Source: Candidatus Roizmanbacteria bacterium RIFCSPHIGHO2_02_FULL_38_11 (GTDB lineage: Bacteria > Patescibacteriota > Microgenomatia > UBA1406 > GWC2-37-13). From it: a DNA stretch of 32,460 nt. Numbering within the stretch: the first letter of the stretch is position 1; each line of letters opens with the position of its first letter. The notes under the pieces are model-generated. The model was not told where the DNA came from and made no database searches. It saw only the letters and a program-made list of their open reading frames with translations. Made by a program: the position numbers and the translations under genes. Below are positions 4,322 to 5,616 of this stretch, in pieces. The stretch lies in NCBI GenBank assembly GCA_001788015.1, contig MFZO01000047.1, forward strand, positions 68,266-100,725. The letters run 5' to 3'.

Positions 4322-4876
4322 ATGAAAAAATATAAGGCAGATCTGTTGCAAATAGCTCAACTTGGACATCGTGTTTTGCGAAGAAAAGCAAAGAAAGTCA
4401 AAGAGATAAATAATTCAGAGGTGCAAAAGTTAATTGAAGACTTGATAAAAACGGTCATGGATGTTGATGGGGTTGGAATTGCGGCACCTCAAGTTTATAA
4501 ATCTTTAAGAATCTTTATTCTTGCTTCTCATCCCAATCCTCGCTATCCAAAGGCACCTAAAATGAATCCAACGGCAATAATTAATCCAAAAATTATATCT
4601 TATTCAAAAGAAAAGAAAAAAGATTGGGAAGGGTGCTTGAGCATTCCTGGTATAAGAGGATTAATTCCTAGACACTACTCAATCAATGTTGAATTTACAA
4701 ATCGAGATGGAGCAAGACTGAAAAAAACTTACAAAGATTTTGTTGCGAGAATTTTTCAGCACGAGCATGATCATCTTGAAGGAATAATGTTTGTGGATCG
4801 AGTTGAATCTTCGAAAGACTTAATAAGTGAAAAAGAGTATCAAAAGATGATGAAGAAAATCAAATCAAAAACTTGA
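4322..4876 (+). CDS. def: Peptide deformylase
   Basis: All three motifs: GVGIAAPQ, EGCLSIPG, QHEHDHLEG. Confidence 0.97.
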   Translation: MKKYKADLLQIAQLGHRVLRRKAKKVKEINNSEVQKLIEDLIKTVMDVDGVGIAAPQVYKSLRIFILASHPNPRYPKAPKMNPTAIINPKIISYSKEKKKDWEGCLSIPGIRGLIPRHYSINVEFTNRDGARLKKTYKDFVARIFQHEHDHLEGIMFVDRVESSKDLISEKEYQKMMKKIKSKT

Positions 4877-4927: not shown

Positions 4928-4999
4928 GCGCTCGTAACTCAGCGGTAGAGTGCCATCCTTATAAGATGGAAGTCCTTGGTTCGATCCCAAGCGAGCGCA
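4928..4999 (+). tRNA. tRNA-Ile candidate (anticodon UAU)
   Basis: Cloverleaf: acceptor GCGCTCG/CGAGCGC, D arm ACTC/GAGT, anticodon arm CCATC-CTTATAA-GATGG, T arm CTTGG-TTCGATC-CCAAG. Confidence 0.88.
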
Positions 5000-5004
5000 C
5001 ATTA

Positions 5005-5077
5005 GCTGGGGTAGCCAAGGCGGTCACGGCGCGGGTCTGAAAAACCTGAGATCTCAGTTCGATTCTGAGCCCCAGCA
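5005..5077 (+). tRNA. tRNA-Phe (anticodon GAA)
   Basis: Cloverleaf: acceptor GCTGGGG/CCCCAGC, anticodon loop CTGAAAA, T arm CTCAG-TTCGATT-CTGAG. Confidence 0.93.
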
Positions 5078-5080
5078 CAT
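5060..5080 (+). repeat. att-like direct repeat, copy 1 (CGATTCTGAGCCCCAGCACAT), tRNA-Phe 3' end
   Basis: 21-bp exact match to 5384-5404. Confidence 0.92.
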
Positions 5081-5345
5081 GTTTTATTATGCGTACGTTC
5101 TTTTATCATTAAAAGATAAAAATCTTTATATTGGTTCAACTGACAACTTACGATTGCGTTTTAAACAACACGTCAACGGAAAAACAGTTTCATTGAAAAA
5201 TAGAAGACCCTTAAAACTTATTTATTATGAAGCTTTTCTAACTAAAAAGGAAGCATTGCTCAAAGAAAAATTCTACAAGTCAGGCAGAGGTCACGAAGTT
5301 TTATACAAAATGTTAGCTGATACATTCAAGTTATTAGGAAAATAG
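5079..5345 (+). CDS. GIY-YIG nuclease superfamily small protein (YhbQ/UPF0213-like)
   Basis: MFYYAYVLLSLKDKNLYIGSTDNLRLRFKQHVNG...RRPLKLIYYEAF...ALLKEKFYKSGRG, typical single-domain GIY-YIG protein. Confidence 0.93.
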   Translation: MFYYAYVLLSLKDKNLYIGSTDNLRLRFKQHVNGKTVSLKNRRPLKLIYYEAFLTKKEALLKEKFYKSGRGHEVLYKMLADTFKLLGK

Positions 5346-5404
5346 ATTTATGGTAGTGGGCTGAAATCCTCCGATTCGGAGGACGATTCTGAGCCCCAGC
5401 ACAT
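5081..5404 (+). mobile_element. Putative 324-bp tRNA-Phe-targeted insertion carrying only the GIY-YIG ORF
   Basis: ORF lies between 21-bp exact direct repeats, one of which is the tRNA-Phe 3' end. Confidence 0.65.
5384..5404 (+). repeat. att-like direct repeat, copy 2
   Basis: Identical to 5060-5080. Confidence 0.92.
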
Positions 5405-5451: not shown

Positions 5452-5579
5452 CGAGTTTCGCAGTTGTCATTCTGATCCCGAGTACTCGGGAGAAGAATCT
5501 CTTGCGAATGCAAAACTGAAACAAGTTCAGAGATTCTTCGTCGTTTCACTCCTCAGGATGACAGGAAGTGCGAAACTCG
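5452..5579. repeat. MITE-like intergenic element with 11-bp perfect terminal inverted repeats (CGAGTTTCGCA/TGCGAAACTCG)
   Basis: Outer IR plus internal GTCATTCTGA.../...TCAGGATGAC arms. Confidence 0.7.
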
Positions 5580-5616
5580 AGTTTTATTTCAATACCCATA
5601 ATATAATGTCCAATAA

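Follow-up and report, generated by a model that had tools for sequence, protein, structure and literature searches.

The 32,460-nt stretch of DNA analyzed here (the window, to which coordinates refer) is from a Microgenomates (CPR) genome, Candidatus Roizmanbacteria, and contains an intact tRNA-Phe gene, a small GIY-YIG nuclease gene directly at its end, and a displaced, degenerate piece of the same tRNA farther downstream. Comparison of this locus with its relatives indicates that it probably represents a minimal element of the free-standing GIY-YIG homing type, resident in tRNA genes and carrying a replacement tRNA end. The features of the locus are as follows.

4322..4876, + strand: def, a peptide deformylase-like gene and the synteny anchor 5' of the tRNAs (ORF; tblastn match in the congeneric genome G003)
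4928..5000, + strand: tRNA-Ile(tat), a member of a conserved tRNA cluster (ARAGORN; Rfam)
5005..5078, + strand: tRNA-Phe(gaa), intact, the host or target gene (ARAGORN; Rfam; genome match)
5060..5080, + strand: duplication copy 1, 21 bp, from T-loop nt 56 to the 3' end plus 2 nt
5079..5345, + strand: GIY-YIG nuclease gene, 88 aa (ORF; PF01541, E 2.3e-15; catalytic residues conserved)
5352..5366, + strand: degenerate piece of the displaced tRNA-Phe (GGTAGTGGGCTGAAA), tRNA nt 5-38 with deletions (alignment)
5367..5383, + strand: perfect 17-bp palindrome TCCTCCGATTCGGAGGA inside the displaced tRNA-Phe, its core common to all other tRNA-Phe-linked GIY-YIG loci found
5384..5404, + strand: duplication copy 2, the displaced tRNA-Phe 3' end

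A sequence-only reading of this DNA had reported an exact 21-bp duplication of the tRNA-Phe 3' end, and CGATTCTGAGCCCCAGCACAT is indeed present without mismatch at 5060-5080 and 5384-5404, with no third match in the window at up to 3 mismatches and 0 in 100 shuffles. The tRNA, which had been taken as intact, is recognized as such by ARAGORN and Rfam and is the only full match in the genome (5005-5078), the second match being the 21-nt copy. The GIY-YIG ORF, whose ATG is the first nucleotide past the ARAGORN end of tRNA-Phe, is the sole gene between the two copies and, as had also been described, no integrase is found there. The suggestion that copy 2 could be part of a longer tRNA remnant was borne out as well, since 5352-5366 aligns with tRNA nt 5-38 and copy 2 is thus the end of a degenerate tRNA-Phe broken at the T-loop. 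Missed earlier was the palindrome at 5367-5383, immediately 5' of copy 2, at the T-loop break of the remnant. The two copies match the same host tRNA exactly or almost exactly, and no donor is distinguishable; the left boundary is seamless, so that the imported half cannot be told from the native one. With Rfam, only the two tRNAs reach the gathering score between 4800 and 5700, and a group I intron was rejected with no intron family match there. A plasmid or phage origin was likewise rejected, the plasmid and phage sequences searched giving no plasmid match and one weak phage match.

In the proposed mechanism, the nuclease would target one isotype, in this case tRNA-Phe, and cut the DNA of a loop in a tRNA gene that is still uninterrupted; repair from an occupied copy would then insert the element, with the tRNA pieces at the element ends providing the homology arms. 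The tRNA gene would stay whole because the element brings a replacement for the end that it displaces. For the window, the replacement would be a 3' end that completes tRNA-Phe, if this is the half that came with the element, and the original 3' end at 5384-5404 would have been left downstream as a decaying remnant that gained a palindrome. In most relatives the arrangement is the mirror image of this: the gene is preceded by a displaced 5' piece, and the tRNA downstream would be completed by a replacement 5' piece. That the GIY-YIG protein itself drives mobility, as had been suggested, is the best inference from these sequences.

The association of such genes with tRNAs recurs widely. Loci were collected by protein similarity alone, giving 155 distinct GIY-YIG genes. 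Among relatives, a tRNA or tmRNA lies within 250 nt on the same strand for 74 of 101 genes and on the opposite strand for none, with about 1% expected by chance from 39 tRNAs per 1.238 Mb; the relatives are non-independent samples, and these counts overstate the number of separate events. The 27 of 101 genes with no tRNA link count against the homing interpretation. In GTDB genomes at large, 29 of 54 genes are tRNA-linked, including some in records labelled Omnitrophota, Victivallales and Croceitalea. The order seen in the window (tRNA, gene, displaced 3' end) is found in five other loci (L009, L010, L069, L112 and L142). In two of these, L009 (Roizmanbacteria) and L010, a tRNA-Phe is followed by a GIY-YIG gene directly at its end and then by a piece of that same tRNA-Phe; the two tRNA-Phe sequences differ from that of the window and each displaced copy matches its local tRNA, with the anticodon arm of the remnant replaced by a palindrome of the same kind (core TCCGANTCGGA). 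Close protein relatives in L011-L013 lie between tRNA-Ile and tRNA-Phe, again with displaced tRNA-Phe pieces and palindromes. Similar duplications at other tRNAs, which the sequence-only reading had proposed looking for, are numerous. GIY-YIG genes are also found downstream of tmRNA (L006, L014, L034, L124, L133, L152), several of these loci having palindromes centred on GTC.GAC or GTT.GAC between tmRNA and gene; no duplicated tmRNA end was detected in the three checked (L006, L014, L034).

The elements occur in two mirror forms. At 59 loci the 3' end of the gene abuts the 5' end of the tRNA, with the stop codon inside the tRNA in 25 of the 59, and in 39 of these 59 the region upstream of the gene carries a 5' part of that tRNA, compared with 4 of 590 control pairings. 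In the form seen in the window, a 3' part of the same tRNA lies downstream in 6 of 35 3'-side loci, compared with 0 of 350 controls. In both forms, the duplicated host-gene end restores the tRNA and the displaced end is left behind. A displaced piece at every 3'-side locus was rejected as a rule, none being detected in 29 of 35 non-tmRNA 3'-side loci, which also counts against homing. One end of a fragment is usually the exact tRNA terminus, nt 1 or the 3' end, and the other mostly falls in a loop: for 33 5' pieces the break is in the D-arm or D-loop in 28 and in the anticodon loop in 5, and for 14 3' pieces it is in the T-loop in 8. A split tRNA encloses the gene and an intact tRNA in L076 and L097, and the D-loops of its two parts contain the same hairpin. 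These features are most simply read as entry of the element into a tRNA loop, with the displaced end made good by a copy that the element supplies. A D-loop site, GGTA^GAG, can be seen on inspection of L017, L048 and L108, and L076 has a near match to it; a regular-expression search returned one case only, as the hairpins vary. Separately, a tRNA-Arg in L035 (G003:C36) is interrupted at its anticodon by an inverted repeat, inside which lies a further complete tRNA-Arg(tcg).

Uninterrupted tRNA-Phe sites, which the sequence-only reading had proposed looking for in sister strains, were found in congeneric and other related genomes. With these sites and the duplications at other tRNAs, the outcome it had named as refuting, one arrangement in all sister genomes with neither empty sites nor duplications elsewhere, did not occur. 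Most tRNA-Phe loci in about 50 genomes of relatives have no GIY-YIG gene. The congeneric G003 (L169) has def (88% identical protein, tblastn), tRNA-Ile and tRNA-Phe at the same spacing as in the window, with the gene absent; its downstream flank has no resemblance to the sequence after copy 2, and the exact empty joint is not seen in this comparison. The ancestral setting appears to be a cluster of tRNAs in the order Arg-Ala-Ile-Phe-Gly, entered by GIY-YIG genes at different points. A decayed GIY-YIG reading frame is present directly after tRNA-Phe in L167. In the same locus, at -122 to -60 from tRNA-Phe, the 3' half of a tRNA-Ile is repeated exactly over 38 nt, 17 nt beyond the tRNA itself, and no GIY-YIG gene separates the two.

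Across 147 proteins, the catalytic residues Y6, Y17, G19, R27, H31 and E63 of the nuclease show conservation of at least 95%, and dN/dS within the Phe-linked clade is 0.09-0.21 where computable, dS being saturated in most pairs; the sequences show purifying selection on the nuclease. Proteins group by tRNA isotype: on a tree of 147 rows and 88 columns with many weak forks, isotype changes number 51, whereas 200 shuffles average 75 and never fall below 70, and orientation changes number 12, compared with at least 23 in shuffles. The six Phe-linked proteins, from six different host genomes and with three in each orientation, form a single clade (SH-aLRT 90). The best relatives of solved structure, by sequence, are the small GIY-YIG proteins of UPF0213 (PDB 1zg2 and 1ywl, E 3e-5 and 7e-4), which likewise consist of a single small domain but have no tie to tRNA genes known here. 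The window protein has little beyond the catalytic domain with which to recognise a tRNA gene, a further point against homing.

Among known systems, two bear closely on this interpretation. In phages T4 and T6, SegB is a free-standing GIY-YIG homing endonuclease of the tRNA region, reported to cut within tRNA genes (PMC13096335, with Brok-Volchanskaya 2008 cited there). As in the elements described here, a GIY-YIG nuclease lies beside tRNA genes and, as in an array in genome G009 considered below, recombination of a tRNA 5' region with the gene 3' end gives tandem units. SegB belongs to a phage, whereas these elements are chromosomal and the window protein, at only 88 aa, is little more than a catalytic domain; displaced tRNA halves, replacement ends, isotype clades and palindromes are not described for SegB in the passages of that source consulted. 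The mobile ORFs (mORFs) in atp6, atp9, cox2 and nad3 of fungal mitochondria (PMC3630166, where a precedent from Allomyces is cited) pair an endonuclease gene with a substitute end for the essential gene that they invade, whose native end is then displaced downstream, and one atp9 case has a GIY-YIG enzyme (PMC3630166). The mORFs replace the 3' end of mitochondrial protein genes, whereas here it may be either end of a bacterial tRNA gene. By analogy, the best explanation is that the element would work like the mORFs with a nuclease of the SegB kind, the host, the targeting of either end, the isotype clades and the palindromes being different. As for CPR bacteria themselves, a survey of insertions in rRNA genes judged that their GIY-YIG proteins fall outside homing-mediated spread (PMC11270868). 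Those insertions are in the same bacteria, some encode GIY-YIG proteins and many short ones are at stem-loops, but tRNA is unmentioned in the main text of the survey (PMC11270868). Among open papers, none was found that ties GIY-YIG genes to CPR tRNA genes, although absence there is not proof.

Tight hairpins are concentrated around the GIY-YIG genes, their density being 2.06 per kb up to 250 nt from a gene, 0.37 farther away and 0.05 in shuffled sequence. Palindrome cores tend to be clade-specific, with centres of CGA.TCG for the Phe clade, GTC.GAC for the tmRNA/Ala/Gly clade and GCT.AGC for the Glu/Leu/Arg/Val clade. A centre is shared between different genomes in 57 of 88 pairs at 55-80% protein identity compared with 5 of 1197 pairs below 45%, and two GIY-YIG types within one genome rarely share one; by pair counts and permutation, palindrome type tracks protein type and not host. 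The Phe-type palindrome is not exclusive to tRNA-Phe and is an interspersed repeat with about 150 sites in 29 of 96 genomes, compared with 1 for the reversed control. It occurs within apparent 23S rRNA gene sequence (L222, L209, L206 and, in the same genome as the window, L043 at G000:C48:826-836) and in loops of REP-like hairpins (L040, L214, L216). Judged from these sequences, the palindrome may be a cognate satellite or nuclease binding site, or a separate element that favours loops.

Other explanations fit parts of these findings. A duplicated tRNA 3' end is the classic footprint of integrase-type integration, and the exact 21-bp repeat could be the attL and attR of an island at tRNA-Phe from which the integrase was lost. 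This is very improbable, however, with the GIY-YIG gene alone between the copies in the window, L009 and L010, with the 5' part of the tRNA duplicated in most relatives, and with protein clades that follow isotype. Coincidence, in the form of an ordinary tandem tRNA duplication beside an unrelated gene, is hardly credible and is refuted by the comparative counts: although tRNA remnants with no gene do exist, such as the tRNA-Ile 3' half in L167, linkage is 73% where about 1% is expected, pieces of the linked tRNA are far above control, and the proteins form isotype clades. The sequence-only reading had named plain tandem duplication as one thing that would overturn it, and this was not upheld given the isotype clades and fragments that start exactly at nt 1 or reach the 3' end and break in loops.

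A SegB-like nuclease that drives local duplication or amplification of tRNAs by unequal exchange, possibly to the use of the host and with no homing, is unlikely, though the array in G009 favours it. There, 13 perfect 357-bp tandem units of a tRNA-Ser piece, whose anticodon loop contains two hairpins, and a GIY-YIG gene occupy L038:1-4646 (G009:C2), as unequal exchange between repeated tRNA pieces would give; across a contig gap the array faces L204, at the end of G009:C3, in which the gene is followed by an intact tRNA-Ser, and in a sister species L039 (G039:C1) begins in the same array. Such amplification is driven by SegB in phage T6 (PMC13096335). However, arrays are rare and a single copy is usual, this one lies at contig ends where copy number may be an assembly effect, and patchy presence at one tRNA across genera together with isotype clades fits spread better. 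Another reading is a DNA-hairpin nuclease with its own palindromic repeats, like REP/RAYT or the Neisseria Ssn/NTS system, for which tRNA genes would be hairpin-rich collecting sites. It would suit the hairpin density near the genes, the palindrome core that follows GIY-YIG type, the same palindrome in apparent 23S rRNA sequence and REP-like hairpins, and two unlinked genes of the window genome that lie between REP-like repeats (L002, L004). Alone it is nonetheless improbable, as it leaves unexplained both the duplicated ends that restore one complete tRNA and the abutment to nt 1.

Taken as a homing-type element, the locus bears on a wider question. tRNA genes are classic integration sites, but for integrases, and an 88-aa nuclease that invades tRNA genes yet keeps them whole would, if confirmed, rank with the smallest known mobile elements and be the bacterial equivalent of cleave-and-rescue drives. 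Such a nuclease would also explain the abundance of small GIY-YIG genes beside tRNAs in CPR genomes, and links these genes to the unexplained short insertions that rRNA stem-loops of these bacteria carry. A wider reading, less likely than not, is that CPR bacteria host a broad family of one-gene selfish elements of about 300 bp, in many lineages and each specific for one isotype. In this reading the nuclease would attack an essential tRNA gene for which the element brings the repair, as in a natural cleave-and-rescue system, and each lineage would mobilise short palindromes of its own into loops of tRNA and rRNA genes.

REP-like repeats are present near several of the genes. At 5460-5590 the window has one (GTCATTCTGA...GAAGAATCTC) with the palindrome TCCCGAGTACTCGGGA at 5476-5491, and a hairpin of the same kind is near the GIY-YIG gene of L014. 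The tRNA-unlinked GIY-YIG genes of the window genome, L002 (G000:C19) and L004 (C2), are flanked by the repeats ATTCCCGCGAAAGCGGGAAT and ATTGCGAGG...CCTCGCAAT, which suggests that other nuclease types are tied to other repeats.
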